NCBI GenBank assembly: GCA_937902925.1
Contig: CALFNN010000012.1
Coordinates: 62,001-126,000 of the forward strand
Length of the DNA stretch: 64,000 nucleotides
Reading direction: 5' to 3'
DNA from: an uncultured Opitutaceae bacterium
GTDB taxonomy: Bacteria > Verrucomicrobiota > Verrucomicrobiia > Opitutales > Opitutaceae
The notes under the pieces were generated by a model. That model saw nothing but the letters and a program-made list of their open reading frames with translations. It was not told where the DNA came from and ran no database searches. Made by a program: the position numbers and the translations under genes. Of this stretch, positions 39,183 through 47,715 are shown in pieces. Numbering within the stretch: position 1 is the first letter of the stretch; the number at the start of each line of letters is the position of its first letter.

Positions 39183-41021
39183 CTAGTGAATCGTCAATTC
39201 CAGTGGAAGGCGCGCGTAGACGCCGCGCGGGTCGTTGAACGACTTGAGCGTCTGGAGTTCCGTCTCGATCCGCGCGGCGATCTTCGCCGCGATGCCGGTG
39301 CCTCGCGCCCGCTCGGGCAGGCCGTTTTCCATGAAGTCCTGAATCACCTCGAAGAGCTCTTTCTCGCGCGGATATTCGGTCAGTTGATAATGCGTGCCGA
39401 GCCCCGCCCGGGATGCCGCGAGCGCGATCGCGGCATCCAGCCCGCCGATCTCGTCCACCAACCCGAGCTTGACCGCCTCCGTTCCCGACCAGACGCGGCC
39501 CTGGGCGATTTCTTCCACGACTGTGCGCTGCAGTTTCCGTCCATCGGCCACCTTGTCGATGAACTCGTTGTAGATCCAGTCCACCATGCGCTGGAAGACC
39601 GCCATCTCTTCCGGGGTTTTCGGGCGCGTGATCGTGATCGAATCGGCGAATTTCCCCGTCTTCACGCTGTCAAACGTCAGGCCGAAATTGTTGGCCAGTT
39701 TTTTCACGTCGAACTGGATCCCGAACACCCCGATCGAACCCGTGATGGTGGTCGGCTCCGCCAGGATCCGGTCGCCGTAGGCGGAAATCCAGTAACCGCC
39801 CGACGCGGCGTAACTCCCCATCGAAACAATCACGGGTTTCACCTTTTTCAGGAGCCGGATTTCGCGCTGGATCGTCTCGGCCGCCGAGGCGCTGCCGCCG
39901 GGACTGTTCACCCGCAGCACGACCGCCTTCACTTCGTCGTCCTGGCGCAGCTTGCGCAATTCCCGCGAGAACCGGCTGCCACCCACCTCGCCGATGTCGC
40001 CCTCGCCGTCGACGATGTCGCCCTCCGCGTAGACCACCGCGATGCGACCCGACCCGCCAGATCCGGCCGACCCCTCGTCTTTCTCGCCCTGCTTTTCCGG
40101 CGCCAAGGGAACGTCCTTCGCAATCTTCGCGTAATCGGCGAGCGTGATTTGCTTGAATGGCTCCGACGAATCCTTGCGCCCCGTCTTGGCCTTCAAGTCA
40201 TCGTAGATCTCGTCGCGATACGCCACCCGGTCCACCAGCCGGGCCTTGGCGGCGGCCTCGGGGCGGATGAGTCCCTCCGCGTCGACGGTCGCCTGAATCT
40301 TGGCCGGCGTCAGTCCGCGCCCGGCCGCGACATCGGTCAGCAGGCCGCCCCAGATGTCGTCGAGAAGTTTCTTCACCTGCTCCCGGTTTTCCGGGCTCAT
40401 GTCGGTCCGCGTGAACGGCTCGACATAGGACTTGTATTTGCCGACCCGCGTGACCTGGACATCGATGCCGTATTTTTCGAACGCTCCCGCGTAGAACATC
40501 GGCTCGCTCGCCAGCCCGGGCATCATGATCATGCCGTAGGGATCGATCGCCAGGTCCGTCGCGGCCGAGGCGAGATAGTAATCCTTGGTGGTCGCATAGG
40601 TCAGGTAGGCCGTGATCGGCTTGCCCGCCGCCTTGAACTCGTTGAGCGCCGCCCGCACCTCGCGGAGCGCCGCATAGCCCGATCCAAATGCCGCCGGCGT
40701 CAGGTCGCCCGTCACGAAAACTCCCGCCACCCGATCGTCCTTTGCGGCCGCCCGCAGGGCGCGCGTGATCGTCCGCAGTTGAATGGTGTCGTCGCGCGCG
40801 CCTCCGAACATCCCGAGGTCGACCGGCGGCGGCGCGTCCGTGATGTTGCTCGACAGGTCGAAGACCACGTAGGAGCCGCGCGCCAGGGCCGGCGCCGCCT
40901 TCTCCCCGCCGCCGATGGCGGCAATCGCCCCGATAAACCCGATGAAGACCAGCACGCACCCGCCCGCAAAGATGACCAGGGCCACCAGTGCGCCCAGCAT
41001 CGACGTGAAAAAATTTCTCAT
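39183..41021 (-). CDS. sppA: Signal peptide peptidase SppA, 67-kDa type
   Basis: A membrane-bound serine protease that degrades cleaved signal peptides. The 612-residue product has one N-terminal membrane segment (about 8-35) and two tandem ClpP-like domains. The general-base lysine lies in the N-terminal half (RVGKYKSYVEPF) and the nucleophile serine in the C-terminal half (GSYAASGGYW), as in the long E. coli-type SppA. I chose the ATG at 41021; the frame extends to a GTG at 41033. It is 15 bases upstream of sufT. Confidence 0.93.
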   Translation of the reverse strand: MRNFFTSMLGALVALVIFAGGCVLVFIGFIGAIAAIGGGEKAAPALARGSYVVFDLSSNITDAPPPVDLGMFGGARDDTIQLRTITRALRAAAKDDRVAGVFVTGDLTPAAFGSGYAALREVRAALNEFKAAGKPITAYLTYATTKDYYLASAATDLAIDPYGMIMMPGLASEPMFYAGAFEKYGIDVQVTRVGKYKSYVEPFTRTDMSPENREQVKKLLDDIWGGLLTDVAAGRGLTPAKIQATVDAEGLIRPEAAAKARLVDRVAYRDEIYDDLKAKTGRKDSSEPFKQITLADYAKIAKDVPLAPEKQGEKDEGSAGSGGSGRIAVVYAEGDIVDGEGDIGEVGGSRFSRELRKLRQDDEVKAVVLRVNSPGGSASAAETIQREIRLLKKVKPVIVSMGSYAASGGYWISAYGDRILAEPTTITGSIGVFGIQFDVKKLANNFGLTFDSVKTGKFADSITITRPKTPEEMAVFQRMVDWIYNEFIDKVADGRKLQRTVVEEIAQGRVWSGTEAVKLGLVDEIGGLDAAIALAASRAGLGTHYQLTEYPREKELFEVIQDFMENGLPERARGTGIAAKIAARIETELQTLKSFNDPRGVYARLPLELTIH

Positions 41022-41151
41022 GGAAGGGCGCACCGTAGCCGCTTTCCGGCGTTCCTCCAGTCGAAACGCCGCCGGGCGATTTCACCGCGCTGACACGCGT
41101 TCCGTCACGAACTGGTTGCGCCATGCCCGCGTATGGTCACCATGGTTCACC

Positions 41152-42654
41152 ATGGCCGCGCAAAACACTCTCCTGACCACGAACCGCAAGGCGCTGACGA
41201 TTAATCTCAACGACGAGCAATACGGCACGTTCGCCGAGATCGGCGCCGGCCAGGAAGTCGCCCGCGTCTTTTTCCATGCCGGCGGCGCCTCCGGCACGAT
41301 CGCGAAAACGATTTCCGCCTATGACATGACGTTCAGCGACGCGATCTACGGCAAGGCGCCCCGCTACGTCTCGCACGAACGCCTCGAACTCATGCTCGAG
41401 CACGAGTTCAACCTGCTCGTCGAGCGGCTCGCGCAGCAGCGCGGCGACCGCACGACGTTCTTCGTGTTCGCCGATACCGTCGCCACGAAAAACTTCAAGG
41501 GGACCAACGAGGCCCACGGTTGGATGGGGATCCGCTTTCAGGCCGAAGCCGGCGGCGCGCCGAGCGACATCATCCTGCACGTCCGGATGTGGGACAAGGA
41601 GAACGTCCTCCAGCAGGAGGCGCTGGGCATCGTCGGCACCAACCTCGTCTACGGCGCGTTCTATTTTCGCGACGACCCGCGAAAATTCATCGAGTCGCTC
41701 CTCGATAACCTCAGCGCCGACCGCATCGAGGTCGACATGCTCAAGTTCATCGGCCCCGCCTTCGCGCACGTCGACAACCGCCTGATGTCGCTCCACCTCG
41801 TGCATTTTGGCCTGACCAACGCCGTGATGTTCGGCCCGGGCGGCGACGTCCAGCAACCGTCCGAGGTGCTCTACAAGAAGGCCATCCTCGTCGAGCGCGG
41901 CAGTTTCCGTCCCGTCACGCACGTCAACGTCGACATGTTGAACTGCGCCACCGCGCAGTTCGTCCAGGAACCGCTCGTGAAGGGCAAAGACGTGATCGTC
42001 CTCATGGAGATCACGATGAACAACCTCCTCGCCGCCGGCGAACTCGACGCCCAGGACTTTCTTTCCCGCGTCGACCTCCTCGCCGACATCGGGTTCACCG
42101 TCCTCATTTCAAATTACTCCGAGTATTACCGCCTCACCTCCTACTTCCGCCGTTACACGAAGGAGATGATCGGCGTCGCGATGGGCATCAACAACCTCAT
42201 CGAGATCTTCAACGAAAAATACTACGAAAACCTCGAGGGCGGCATCCTCGAGTCGTTCGGCCGCCTCTTCCGCCATTCGGTCCGCCTCTACGTTTACCCC
42301 ATGCGCCAGGAAGCCTACGACCGCTACCTGATGAACGGCCAGGTCGTTCCGGCGCCCGGCGCCACCGGCAGCCATACGTTCGCCTCGAACGTGCTGATCA
42401 ACGCGAAGAACGTCCAGGTCGTGGATCACCTGCGCAACCTCTACAATCATCTCCTCGAGAACCATTACATCGACTCGATCGTCGGCTTCGATCGCGACAT
42501 CCTGCACATCTTTTCCCGCGACGTGCTTCGCCGCATCAAGGAAAACGACGCGACGTGGGAGCAAATGGTCCCGACCTCCGTCGCCACCGCCATCAAGAAG
42601 CGAGGTCTCTTCGGCTACGCTCCTCCGGCCGGCGTCGCCGTCGCCACGAAATAA
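41152..42654 (+). CDS. Conserved-looking 500-residue cytoplasmic protein of unknown function
   Basis: I do not recognise the family. The product has no signal peptide and no membrane segment. It is well ordered and of mixed composition, with several short, conserved-looking blocks: THVNVDMLNCATAQF, IVLMEITMNNLLAAGELD, TVLISNYSEYYRLTSYFRRY and MGINNLIEIFNEKYY. It reads like an enzyme with at least two domains. I start at the ATG at 41152; the frame is open further upstream but the extra residues are shadow of the sppA leader. It is followed 64 bases later by a DUF4336 gene. Confidence 0.75.
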   Translation: MAAQNTLLTTNRKALTINLNDEQYGTFAEIGAGQEVARVFFHAGGASGTIAKTISAYDMTFSDAIYGKAPRYVSHERLELMLEHEFNLLVERLAQQRGDRTTFFVFADTVATKNFKGTNEAHGWMGIRFQAEAGGAPSDIILHVRMWDKENVLQQEALGIVGTNLVYGAFYFRDDPRKFIESLLDNLSADRIEVDMLKFIGPAFAHVDNRLMSLHLVHFGLTNAVMFGPGGDVQQPSEVLYKKAILVERGSFRPVTHVNVDMLNCATAQFVQEPLVKGKDVIVLMEITMNNLLAAGELDAQDFLSRVDLLADIGFTVLISNYSEYYRLTSYFRRYTKEMIGVAMGINNLIEIFNEKYYENLEGGILESFGRLFRHSVRLYVYPMRQEAYDRYLMNGQVVPAPGATGSHTFASNVLINAKNVQVVDHLRNLYNHLLENHYIDSIVGFDRDILHIFSRDVLRRIKENDATWEQMVPTSVATAIKKRGLFGYAPPAGVAVATK

Positions 42655-43497: not shown

Positions 43498-44352
43498 ATG
43501 CGCTTCCACAAATACCACGCCCTCGGCAACGACTACATCGTGCTCGACCCGCGCGACTTTCCCTCATGGGAACCCGCCCCCACGGTCGAGCAGATCCGTG
43601 TGGTCTGTCATCGCAACTTCGGCGTCGGCTCCGACGGCATCCTCTGGGGCCCGCTGCCGTCGAAGCAGAGCGAGTTCGGCCTGCGCATCTTCAACCCGGA
43701 CGGCTCCGAGGCCGAGAAATCCGGCAACGGACTCCGCATCTTTTCCCGTTACCTTTGGGACCAGGGCCTCGTGAAGAATCCGAATTTCACCGTCGAGACT
43801 CCCGGCGGCCACGTGCAGGTCGCGATCAAGGACGGCGGCAAACTGCTCACGATCGCGATGGGGTCGGTGAGCTTCGACAGCACGAAAATTCCGGTCATCG
43901 GCGCCCGCCGCGAAGTGCTCAACGAGAAGATCAAGATTCTCGACCGCGAGTTCACCTACAACGCCGCGACCATCGGCAATCCCCACTGCGTCGTCCCGCT
44001 CCCCGCCGTCACCTCCGAAATCGCCCACCGTTACGGCCCGCACCTCGAGACTCATCCGAATTTTCCACGCAAGACGAACGTGCAGTTTCTGCAGGTCCTC
44101 GACCGGGCAAACATCCGCATCGAGATTTGGGAGCGCGGCGCCGGCTATACGCTCGCGTCCGGCAGCAGCTCCAGCGCCTCGGCCGCCGTCGCCCACAAGC
44201 TCGGGCTCGTCGACCGGAGCGTGACCGTCCACATGCCCGGCGGCACGATCGGCATCGAGATCGGCGACAATTTTTCGATCATGATGACCGGCACCGTGAA
44301 CAAGGTCGCGGACGGCACCATGCATCCGGAGCTGTTCGCGGTAAAGGTCTGA
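43498..44352 (+). CDS. dapF: Diaminopimelate epimerase homologue lacking both catalytic cysteines
   Basis: DapF converts LL- to meso-diaminopimelate using two cysteines as acid and base. This 284-residue homologue keeps the fold and binding motifs: ALGNDYIVLD at the start, NPDGSEAEKSGNG, the GNPHCV loop and ERGAGYT. The first catalytic position, Cys in SGNGxRCF, is Ile81 here (SGNGLRIF). The second, Cys in TxACGTG, is Ser221 (TLASGSSSS). Either a divergent clade uses other residues or this is a paralogue with a different role. An in-frame GTG six bases upstream could also start translation. I keep the dapF symbol as homology, not proven activity. Confidence 0.82.
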   Translation: MRFHKYHALGNDYIVLDPRDFPSWEPAPTVEQIRVVCHRNFGVGSDGILWGPLPSKQSEFGLRIFNPDGSEAEKSGNGLRIFSRYLWDQGLVKNPNFTVETPGGHVQVAIKDGGKLLTIAMGSVSFDSTKIPVIGARREVLNEKIKILDREFTYNAATIGNPHCVVPLPAVTSEIAHRYGPHLETHPNFPRKTNVQFLQVLDRANIRIEIWERGAGYTLASGSSSSASAAVAHKLGLVDRSVTVHMPGGTIGIEIGDNFSIMMTGTVNKVADGTMHPELFAVKV

Positions 44353-44871
44353 TCCGGCAGCGATCACTCGGTCCGCCAGGCCGCCGACGCGCATGGTTTT
44401 CGCCACATCGATCAGCATCGTCCGAGAGACGAATTCATCGGGCGCCCAAGGGAATCAGGCGAACCGCGCGTTGAACTCCCCTCAGCCATAGATCGCGATC
44501 CGGGGTCGCACTCCCGAGCAAAGAACGTTCGCGGACCGGAACGGCTCTTCTTGCCGGCCTGGGGGCGATTTTGCTCGGCACCGAGATCGCCTTAGAAAGA
44601 TCGACGTAAGCCTGACAGGTTGGCGCAACGAGTGCCCGTGTCCCTTCGTCATGCCCGGATGGACCGCGCTTGCAGGCGCGTTTCGATGCCGGATCCGCCC
44701 CCATCGGCTTCGGCGCCACCCATGAGTTTTCCGCTCGCCCACCCCCTCAGTCCACCACCGGTTGTCGTTCGCACGTGCCCGACGAACGGGCGCTCGACTC
44801 CGCCGCCGAAGAAGATGAACTTCGTCCACCCCTCCGAAGCGCCGGCCCCTCCTCCACGCCCGGAAAAAGCG
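44353..44871 (+). other. 519-base region without a supportable gene
   Basis: The frame of the downstream DUF1592 gene is open back to 44620. However, the extra residues are a low-complexity Pro/Ser stretch, while a clear signal peptide begins at 44872. Minus-strand frames at 44435-44829 have no family features. No RNA, repeat or terminator is evident. It presumably holds the promoter for the DUF1592/DUF1552 genes. Confidence 0.5.
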
Positions 44872-47715
44872 ATGAAACTCGTCCCACTCCTCTTGCTTTC
44901 ATTGATGATGACGGCTCCCACGGTCCGGCCGGCCGGCCTGGCGCCCGCTTCCGCACCCACCAACTCCGAACCGGCGCCGGCCCCGGTCTTGCCGGCGATC
45001 GATCGGGCTCTCGGGTTCACTGACAAATACTGCTCCAACTGCCACAACGACGAGGACCTGAAGGGCGGGCTGGATGTGACATCGCTCAACTTCAAGCCCG
45101 GCGACCCGGCCAACTTTCTCACTTGGGTCAAGCTGCACGACCGGCTCGAGGCGGGCGAGATGCCGCCCAAGGATCGCAAGCGCCCCGACCGGGCCGAGGC
45201 CGCGGCATTTCTTCAGGACATCACGTCCGCTCTGACCACCTACGAAAACGACCTCGCCGCGCGCGAGGGCCGCGCGACCCAGCGCCGGCTCAATCGCGGC
45301 GAATACGAGAACGCCCTGCGCGATCTCCTGCAGTCGCCCTGGCTGCAGGTGAGGGACCAGTTGCCCGAGGATGGCGACGCCTATCACTTCAACCGCATCA
45401 GCAGCGCGCTCGACGTCTCCTACGTGCATCTCGCCCGCTTCATGAGCGCCGCCGACTATGCGTTGCGCCAGGCGATCGCCGCCGAGCTGGTCCGCCCGCC
45501 GACCATCACCAGGCGCTACTACGCCCGCGAGAGCTTCTCGATGCGGAACCCAGGGGACGACGGCAATCCGGACCGCCAGAAATTTCCCGTGCTCGACGCC
45601 AAGGCGCAGCCCGACGTCCTCTCCGGGGCCGCGCCGATGACCGTCGGCGACACCGATCCCGCCACGCGCGAGCGGGAGGCGATGGGCTGGGTCCAGAGCA
45701 ACTACTCGACGGGCTTCGGCTCGACGTGGGGCGGCTTCCGCGCGCCCGCCGCGGGCCGCTACCGGCTGCGTTTCAGCGGTTACACGGTGTGGGTTGGCCC
45801 GGGCGGAACACGGCGGCCGACGCTTTCGTTCATCGGCAAGACGCCCAAGGGCGGCAACCCGTCGGACATCGCCGTTCTTCCGGCCGAGTGGTATCGACCC
45901 AACTTCAAGGACATCTCACCCGGCCGCCGCTACGAGCCGATCACGATCTACGCGAAGGGCGCGACGCTGAACCGCCGGATCGGCCAGTTCGACGTCACGC
46001 CCGATCCAACCGTGAGCACGCTCGAGGACGTCTGGCTGGCAACCAACGACGTGATCGTGACGGATGCCACGCGGTTTTTTCGGTCGCGCCCCACCGGCAT
46101 TCCCGACGGCTACACGAATCCGCTGGCGCAACGGGACGGAATGCCCGCCGTGGCATTCCGCTGGATGGAGATTGAAGGCCCGCTCTACGACGAACCCGCC
46201 GCGCCCGGTTACCGCCTTCTGTTTGGCGATCTCCCCCTGACAAAAGTCGCTGCGAACGCGCCGGGCGTGGGCATCGAGGTCGCCGCGGAGCCACCCGCGG
46301 GACCTCCCGCCGGCCGCGGCGCCCGGGGCGCCGGTCGTGGCAACGCCGGGGGCGGATTCGGCTTCGCCGGCGCGCAGCGCGGCCGGCCCCCGCCGACCGT
46401 CCTCACCAAAGTCGAGGTCGTTTCCGCCCATCCGCACGAGGATGCCGCGCGACTGCTCCGCGCGTTCATGGCGCGCGCCTACCGGCATCCCGTCGACGAC
46501 AGCGACGTGAAGCTGTTCCTCGGCTTGATCGACCAACAGATGGACGCCGGCCTCGGGTTCGCCGGCGCGATGCTCGCCGGCTACACTGCCGTGCTTGCCT
46601 CGCCGAAATTCGTCTGCGTCGAGGAAGCTCCCGGCCGCCTCGACGACTACGCGCTCGCCACGCGCCTCTCGTTGTTTCTCTGGAATTCCACGCCCGACGC
46701 TGCTCTCCGCGACCTCGCGGCGAAGGGCGAACTCCATCGACCGGAAGTGTTGCGCGCGCAGACGGAACGACTGCTCGACGACCCGAAGTCCCGCGACTTT
46801 GTCGAGGCGTTTCTCGACTACTGGCTCGATATCCGGAAGGTGAACGACACGTCGCCCTCGACCACGCTCTACAGCGACTATTACATCGACGACTCGCTCG
46901 TGGAAGCGTCGCTCGACGAGACCCATCTCTTCTTCGCCGACTTGCTCGATCACGACCTGCCGGCCCGCAACATCGTGGCGTCCGATTACACCTTCCTCAA
47001 CGACCGGCTCGCTGCGCACTACGGAATTCCCGGCGTCACGGGTGTCGCCATGCGGCGCGTCGCGCTGCCGCCGGACAGCCCGCGCGGCGGACTGATGACC
47101 CAGGCCAGCGTGCTCAAGATCACCGCCAACGGCACCACGACGTCGCCGGTCCTCCGCGGCAAATGGGTCCGCGAACGCATCATGGGACTCGACACCCCGC
47201 CGCCACCACCATCCGTCCCGGCCGTCGACCCCGACATCCGCGGTGCGGTCACCATCCGGCAGCAGCTCGACAAACATCGCGCCGACCAGACCTGCGCAGC
47301 GTGCCACAGCAAGATCGACCCCCCGGGTTTCGCACTCGAGAGTTTCGACGTGATGGGGGCATGGCGCGATCGCTATCGAGCCTCGTCGGAGGACGGCGTC
47401 GTCGAGCCGGGCTTCGGCAAGAACGGCTGGCCGTTCACGTTTCACTATGCGCTCCCCGTCGACTCCAGCGGCGCGCTTCCCGACGGGCGCACCTTCAAGG
47501 ACGTCCGCGATTTCAAGCGCCTGCTCCTCGCCGACGAAACGCAGATCGCGCGCAATCTCGCCCGTCAACTCGCGGTCTACGCCACCGGCGCCCCGATCCG
47601 TTTCAGCGACCGCCCGGCCATCGAGCGAATCCTCGCCGGCGCAAAGTCGCACGACTACGGCGTGCGGAGCCTTGTGCATGAGATCGTGCAGAGCGACCTC
47701 TTCCGCAATAAATAG
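44872..47715 (+). CDS. Secreted DUF1592-family protein with two haem-binding motifs (planctomycete-type cytochrome)
   Basis: The 947-residue product has a signal peptide (about 1-20). A CSNCH haem-binding motif at 54-58 starts a PSCyt-like N-terminal domain. The DUF1587, DUF1592, DUF1588 and DUF1585 domains follow in the order typical of these large proteins, with a second CAACH motif at 808-812. About 35 residues near 475-510 are a Gly/Arg/Ala/Pro-rich low-complexity insert. The family is abundant in Planctomycetes, Verrucomicrobia and myxobacteria; its function is not established, though periplasmic redox work is suggested by the haems. It is followed by its usual DUF1552 partner. Confidence 0.9.

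Follow-up and report, generated by a model that had tools for sequence, protein, structure and literature searches.

A deep DapF subfamily of the Opitutaceae and their relatives, with serines in place of both catalytic cysteines, is a likely diaminopimelate epimerase

Results

An intact dapF gene with serines at both catalytic positions

The window, namely the whole stretch of 64,000 nucleotides analysed here from an uncultured Opitutaceae bacterium, carries a dapF homologue whose frame is open throughout, from the ATG at 43498 to the stop codon that ends at 44352. The gene and the codons discussed below are listed in window coordinates; HiDapF stands for the Haemophilus influenzae enzyme, and papers cited by PMC number are drawn on for the excerpts available.

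43498..44352, + strand: DapF-family gene of the Ser/Ser type, 284 amino acids by translation (TIGR00652, 5e-69; PF01678, 4.1e-57)
43513..43515, + strand: Tyr6 codon; co-occurs with Ser75; replaced by Met or Trp in the Cys/Cys proteins read
43720..43722, + strand: Ser75 codon, TCC; equivalent to catalytic Cys73 of HiDapF by alignment to 2q9h
43738..43740, + strand: Ile81 codon; equivalent to Cys79, non-catalytic, by alignment
44146..44148, + strand: Tyr217 codon (HiDapF position 213); Tyr in 124/125 Ser/Ser proteins, Glu in 53/58 Cys/Cys proteins
44158..44160, + strand: Ser221 codon, TCC; equivalent to catalytic Cys217 of HiDapF by alignment
44167..44169, + strand: Ser224 codon (HiDapF position 220), three residues past Ser221; Ser in 124/125 Ser/Ser proteins, Gly in 58/58 Cys/Cys proteins

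The encoded protein scores 232.7 bits against the NCBIfam profile TIGR00652 (cut-off 114.65), which labels it DapF well above the cut-off despite its different catalytic residues, and it matches the Pfam profile PF01678 in two stretches (191.9 against a cut-off of 34.7). Its closest solved structures by sequence are diaminopimelate (DAP) epimerases. Against NF038284, the profile for bifunctional DapF/glutamate racemases, it reaches 64, below the cut-off of 350.

DapF-type cofactor-free racemases are generally held to work through a pair of cysteines, one as thiolate and one as thiol. The initial annotation had proposed that both catalytic thiols are missing here, and this is borne out, since Ser75 (within EKSGNGLRIF) and Ser221 (within TLASGSSSS) occupy the positions of Cys73 and Cys217. 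It had, however, paired Ser221 with Ile81, and only the first of these assignments stands. The titles of the H. influenzae structures 2q9h and 2q9j name the mutants C73S and C217S, respectively, and 2q9h reads SGNGAR in the alignment, so that the catalytic Cys73 precedes GNG; likewise, the signature quoted in PMC8225329 places the cysteine ahead of the GN motif. Ile81 was thus discarded as a catalytic position, as Cys73 matches Ser75, and the pair that defines this protein is therefore Ser/Ser. Because the presence of both Cys73 and Cys217 was checked and serines were found instead, we do not file the protein as a classical two-cysteine DapF. The PROSITE active-site signature, as quoted in PMC8225329, occurs in none of the 125 Ser/Ser proteins described below and in 56 of the 58 Cys/Cys proteins.

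DAP-pathway genes were looked for beside dapF, and none of the flanking genes is obviously linked to DAP. Upstream lie an SppA-like peptidase (39183-41033, - strand), with relatives in at least 52 of 80 dapF loci, and a 579-residue frame (40915-42654, + strand) that has no Pfam match and relatives in at least 56 of the 80; a DUF4336 neighbour was matched in at least 14, all three counts being lower bounds as flanks end at contig ends. Downstream, a Planctomycete-type cytochrome protein with PSD2-PSD5 domains (44620-47715, + strand) has no match among the 80 loci, within flanks bounded in the same way.

The Ser/Ser type is widespread and forms one side of a deep branch

Serine is found at both positions in all 110 loci of a set (L003-L112) made up of the window's own gene (L003), 29 loci from a search of the family and the 80 best of 240 relatives, with some contigs duplicated. 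We then considered 186 distinct natural homologues, for which a further 100 loci were drawn, 20 of them from the family and 80 picked for coverage of the order and the phylum, leaving out identical proteins and two loci that are parts of the window gene (L001, L002). These comprise 125 Ser/Ser proteins, 58 Cys/Cys proteins, no mixed pair, and three fragments with one readable position each, two with Ser and one with Cys. A sequencing or assembly error is rejected on these grounds, as the same residues recur in the 110 loci, the window's own included, and in 125 distinct proteins, and we regard its probability as negligible.

By their record titles, the relatives come from Opitutae, Opitutaceae and Verrucomicrobia, phyla beyond the host's being sampled through plasmids, phage records and viral contigs, and the Ser/Ser proteins are as little as 37% identical to the window protein. 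In a maximum-likelihood tree of 42 of the 125 Ser/Ser proteins, 42 of the 58 Cys/Cys proteins and the H. influenzae enzyme, thinned by identity and built with the two catalytic stretches left out, a branch supported at 100/99 separates the 42 Ser/Ser proteins from all the others. A clade had been raised as a possibility for an Ile/Ser pair; the clade is there, but the pair that marks it is Ser/Ser. The serine codons of the 125 proteins are TCN in 89 and AGY in 36 at position 75, and TCN in 122 and AGC in three at position 221. The window gene is under purifying selection, with a median dN/dS of 0.125 over 45 comparisons with relatives of equal length (45 finite values out of 47 pairs).

Both types occur together in two metagenome-assembled genomes (MAGs), G508 (L167 and L173) and G536 (L164 and L179), with contamination of 5 and 9%. 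Other genomes have two DapF matches, G202 in the order and, for example, G399 and G481 in the phylum.

The DAP pocket is kept while the surroundings of the serines differ

The initial annotation was right that the GNDY, GNPHCV and ERGAG motifs are intact and the pocket retained. When the 125 Ser/Ser and 58 Cys/Cys proteins were compared at HiDapF positions, N11, N64, G74, N75, N157, H159, N190, E208, R209, T214 and G218 were identical in all 125 Ser/Ser proteins. This group includes the six residues that contact both DAP ends, namely N11, N64, N157, N190, E208 and R209, as listed in PMC8225329, the source of the contacts compared. Since these contacts are kept in every Ser/Ser protein, the DAP pocket looks complete.

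Around this pocket, the two types differ consistently (HiDapF numbering). First, position 6 is Tyr in 124 and Phe in one of the Ser/Ser proteins, whereas it is Met in 54 and Trp in four of the Cys/Cys proteins. Second, near the first catalytic position, residue 72 is Lys in 121/125 against Met in 56/58, and residue 79 is Ile in 124/125 against Cys in 55/58. Third, residue 192 is Gln in 125/125 against Asn in 37, Glu in 20 and Asp in one, and residue 205 is Glu in 120/125 against Arg in 57/58. With the changes at 213 and 220 given in the list above, the window protein thus departs from the Cys/Cys proteins by Met6 to Tyr, Cys79 to Ile, Arg205 to Glu, Glu213 to Tyr and Gly220 to Ser, and so the putative acid and base positions and their surroundings have changed together in the Ser/Ser type.

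Tyr6 accompanies Ser75 in 124 of the 125 proteins and in three proteins outside the set (L241, L250, L251), while natural proteins with a Cys/Ser pair have Met at this position. As Tyr6 thus tracks Ser75, we infer that it is the first candidate for a partner of this serine. The residue three places after Ser75 is Gly78 and that three places after Ser221 is Ser224. In the proline racemase superfamily, members with a catalytic Ser anchor it through the residue three positions later (PMC4113996); the Asn that these members have there is absent from the window protein at both sites, and by analogy with these enzymes Ser224 may hold Ser221.

These clade-specific residues also bear on an alternative in which the protein is a DAP epimerase whose protons are moved by other residues (Tyr6, Tyr217, Lys74 or Cys37), the serines only holding the substrate. 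Tyr6 (124/125), Tyr217 (124/125) and Gln196 (125/125) are indeed specific to the clade, and a relocated thiol would find a candidate in Cys37, which is invariant in the 125 Ser/Ser proteins (Cys164, present in 119, is variable). However, Lys74 is replaced by Ile in four of the 125, Tyr217 by Arg in one and Tyr6 by Phe in one; the column of Cys37 is also Cys in 31 of the 58 Cys/Cys proteins, and in an accessory Ser/Ser protein (P0003) the corresponding residue looks like Ala (LVAHRK, aligned by eye). Moreover, the serines hold the very helix-start positions of the catalytic cysteines, and we consider this alternative unlikely.

The positions of the serines as direct acid and base candidates can be appreciated in an AlphaFold2 model of the window protein, a prediction with a mean pLDDT of 96.5 from a 91-row alignment, in which helices 76-88 and 222-234 begin directly past Ser75 and Ser221. 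Catalytic residues of the DapF-like fold occupy such helix starts (PMC11602996). The model has the two-domain DapF-like fold, and the folds closest to it are DAP epimerases, with 8qzy_A of Pseudomonas aeruginosa at the top of the comparison given here (Z 37.5, rmsd 1.6 over 271 residues).

The window protein is the sole DapF found in a genome that should need one

The genome of the window (6.0 Mb, 95% complete) was searched for a second dapF with both cysteines, as the initial annotation had suggested, and none was found; the window protein is the only PF01678 protein in it. The same genome encodes DapL (4.8e-172) and LysA (3.2e-136), both above their cut-offs, and a MurE with the DNPR motif (PMC3681970), and has no match to the meso-DAP dehydrogenase Ddh. 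With DapL, LysA and a DNPR-type MurE and no Ddh, LL-DAP should therefore need conversion to meso-DAP. Of 30 genomes searched, 27 have a MurE match, and in all of these but G153 the MurE carries the DNPR motif (26 of 27).

A DapF match was obtained in 141 of the 150 family genomes, the remaining nine showing neither type. Only a Cys/Cys-type DapF, 25-38% identical to the window protein, is held by 18 genomes (17 read at both positions and one, a fragment, at the first), and 123 have a close relative of the window protein, with a best match at least 57% identical, the catalytic residues having been read in 32 of these, one at the first position only. Both types together were seen in none of the 141. 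Three reduced genomes of 0.8-1.3 Mb (G169, G186, G160) retain a Ser/Ser DapF and a DNPR-type MurE without a LysA match, a combination to be expected if DAP goes into the wall; none of the three has DapL over the cut-off.

These observations weigh on the proposal that the protein is a non-catalytic binding or regulatory protein, a pseudo-enzyme. Both known catalytic thiols are gone, and Escherichia coli DapF is reported to partner RppH as well, which would fit such a role. However, no other DapF was found in the genome, the serines are kept without drift, and a Cys/Cys DapF or Ddh takes the place of the protein in other genomes. A binding protein, one of the options first raised for this gene, thus fits poorly and is in our judgement very improbable. 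Another of these options, a DapF clade that uses different catalytic residues, is favoured by the sole DapF, the either-or pattern among the 141 family genomes and the Ddh-linked loss seen in the order, though not in the family, which is described below.

Chemical data on the wall come from PMC5303756, which reports measurements of DAP for Lacunisphaera and Opitutus terrae; in Opitutaceae it was low by GC/MS, with no isomer assigned in the excerpts available, and TLC found no DL-DAP. The same source lists the DapL route plus a DapF for Lacunisphaera, and a Lacunisphaera MAG in our set carries the Ser/Ser type (L112).

Loss of DapF accompanies Ddh in the order

Among 183 genomes of the order that are at least 90% complete, DapF of either type was counted in 161, low-identity cases (e.g. 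f7, f20) being scored by match rather than by residues and G294 and G296 being scored as lacking it by elimination, and Ddh over the cut-off in 16. Of the 16 genomes with Ddh, 10 have no DapF, against 12 of the other 167 (Fisher p 3.9e-7 by genome); seven of the latter 12 are only 0.7-1.0 Mb in size. Six of the ten DapF-less genomes with Ddh belong to a single genus, g78; counted by genus, a genome lacking DapF occurs in 4 of 7 genera with Ddh and in 5 of 70 others (p 0.003). Losses that coincide with Ddh occur in g78, g61/g106 and g107, and within the family in g3. Within g61, g107 and g3, some genomes have Ddh and DapF, others Ddh without DapF; in g3, G002 and G079 hold both, and G050, assembled as a single contig, has Ddh but lacks DapF and DapL alike. 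Such a pattern of loss would be expected of a functional epimerase that a meso-DAP dehydrogenase renders unnecessary.

In the family sample the link is not seen, DapF being missing in one of eight genomes with Ddh and in eight of 142 without (p 0.4), and six of the 16 Ddh genomes of the order keep both genes. Of the routes to LL-DAP, which include acyl ones, the search covered DapL, and this is over the cut-off in only 68 of the 183 order genomes. Five order genomes larger than 1.5 Mb (G021, G215, G249, G261, G294), some of them assembled in many contigs, have no DapF match and no Ddh over the cut-off.

A putative serine-based epimerase and its known relatives

The genome patterns suggest that the window protein is a working DAP epimerase, a claim that we hold with good confidence. 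That it is an LL/meso-DAP epimerase of a deep Ser/Ser subfamily of DapF in which the serines themselves serve as acid and base we consider likely. The fullest account, namely that a thiol-free, cofactor-free epimerase whose two serines are activated by helix ends and by co-evolved neighbours such as Tyr6 supplied meso-DAP to an ancient clade and was lost in several lineages with Ddh, has in our view slightly better than even chances. The likelihoods worded in this text are judgements and were not computed.

In the proposed mechanism, which is most likely that of DapF, the two domains would close on LL-DAP and the serines at the starts of the two central helices would face the alpha carbon from opposite sides. 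One serine would take up the proton and the other would give one back. They may be made reactive by the helix ends, by the kept His163 and Glu212, and by the clade-specific Tyr6, Tyr217 and Ser224.

To our knowledge no Ser/Ser protein has been assayed, and a literature search, mostly without subscription journals, returned no paper on a serine DapF. In DapF, one cysteine acts as base and the other as acid, and Cys-to-Ala mutants of the Corynebacterium glutamicum enzyme are nearly inactive (PMC5296763). Single Cys-to-Ser mutants of PddB retain less than 0.1% of activity, similar traces being reported for Mycobacterium tuberculosis DapF (PMC8225329), and those of HisR are greatly reduced (PMC11602996). 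Given that Cys-to-Ser mutants of a related racemase have less than 0.1% activity, a working Ser/Ser pair would be a surprise.

Comparison with four known systems places the window protein as follows. First, with the two-cysteine DapF of H. influenzae (1gqz) and P. aeruginosa (8qzy) it shares the fold along its full length (Z 34.3 and 37.5), TIGR00652, the substrate contacts, His159, Glu208 and the DAP-pathway genes in the genome, but Cys73 and Cys217 are replaced by Ser. Second, a natural 4-hydroxyproline 2-epimerase of the proline racemase superfamily with a Ser/Cys pair and a catalytic Ser, and its Ser/Thr relative, a trans-3-hydroxyproline dehydratase, also have Ser for a catalytic Cys in a DapF-like fold, but they have a single Ser with Cys or Thr opposite and act on other substrates (PMC4113996); matches from these families are 10-17% identical. 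Third, the O-ureidoserine racemase DcsC (7vdy), compared by fold and identity rather than by catalytic residues, has the DapF fold (Z 36.4, 32% identity) but, unlike DapF, acts on O-ureidoserine in D-cycloserine synthesis (PMC8142540). Fourth, the bifunctional DapF/glutamate racemase of chlamydiae, likewise in the PVC superphylum, keeps both cysteines and needs both for racemase activity (PMC5885031).

The window's genome, too, lacks a match to the glutamate racemase MurI. A tie between the Ser/Ser pair and the absence of MurI was considered and rejected, as MurI has no match in 24 of 30 genomes, including all four with a Cys/Cys DapF (G013, G019, G047, G109). In other words, G000 and 23 of the 29 other genomes show no MurI match, carriers of either type alike.

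If the serine reading is true, a natural Ser/Ser DAP epimerase would show a pair of alcohols performing the chemistry of two cysteines and would challenge the textbook mechanism; such an enzyme is expected to withstand oxidation and thiol reagents, and it would explain the synthesis of wall precursors in much of Opitutales. Thiol-directed inhibitors of DapF should miss the Ser/Ser type.

Serine homologues on plasmids and viral contigs

Two plasmid genes annotated as dapF, from Streptomyces sp. NBC_01216 (L253) and Agrobacterium vitis pRvVAT039a (L254), encode Ser/Ser proteins with Tyr6 that have lost Asn157; a third plasmid gene that was read, from Paenibacillus (L252), is Cys/Cys. In a wider tree of 18 Ser/Ser proteins, 23 Cys/Cys proteins, H. 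influenzae DapF and nine loci from plasmids or viral contigs (L246, L248 and L249 left out), L253 and L254 fall on the Ser/Ser side with support of 100/100. Both lie in a common run of genes for an iron-containing redox enzyme, a 2OG-Fe dioxygenase, dapF, a molybdopterin oxidoreductase and an aldo/keto reductase, which looks like an amino-acid pathway. These homologues show that the Ser/Ser pair extends past housekeeping DapF, and they probably act on an amino acid other than DAP. An EamA transporter gene lies near the five-gene run.

The plasmid genes bring in a further alternative for the window protein, in which it shares the fold and needs no cofactor but handles a different substrate or catalyses a different reaction, for instance a single-base elimination, meso-DAP being made by an unknown enzyme. 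Ser/Ser homologues do sit in accessory clusters of Streptomyces and Agrobacterium, the proline racemase superfamily includes a dehydratase with a Ser/Thr pair (PMC4113996), and the Ddh link is absent from the family sample. However, the DAP contacts are kept in 125/125 Ser/Ser proteins, while the two accessory proteins lost Asn157, and the either-or relation with the Cys/Cys DapF across 141 family genomes and the loss of DapF with Ddh in the order also speak against it. We regard another reaction as improbable for the window protein, for which DAP epimerisation stays the preferred reading; it is more plausible for the distant accessory homologues.

Serine at the second position also occurs opposite a cysteine. 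Natural DapF proteins with Cys73 and Ser217 are encoded on contigs listed as viral (L243:1501-2301, L245:1501-2307, L246:1501-2298), with the motifs TLASGSSSC and TLASGSCSC. Since L243 and L245 fall elsewhere in the tree, serine at 217 arose separately there. A further contig listed as viral, of 15 kb, encodes a Ser/Ser DapF (L241:1501-2328) with Tyr6 and Tyr217, in which His159 is replaced by Asn.
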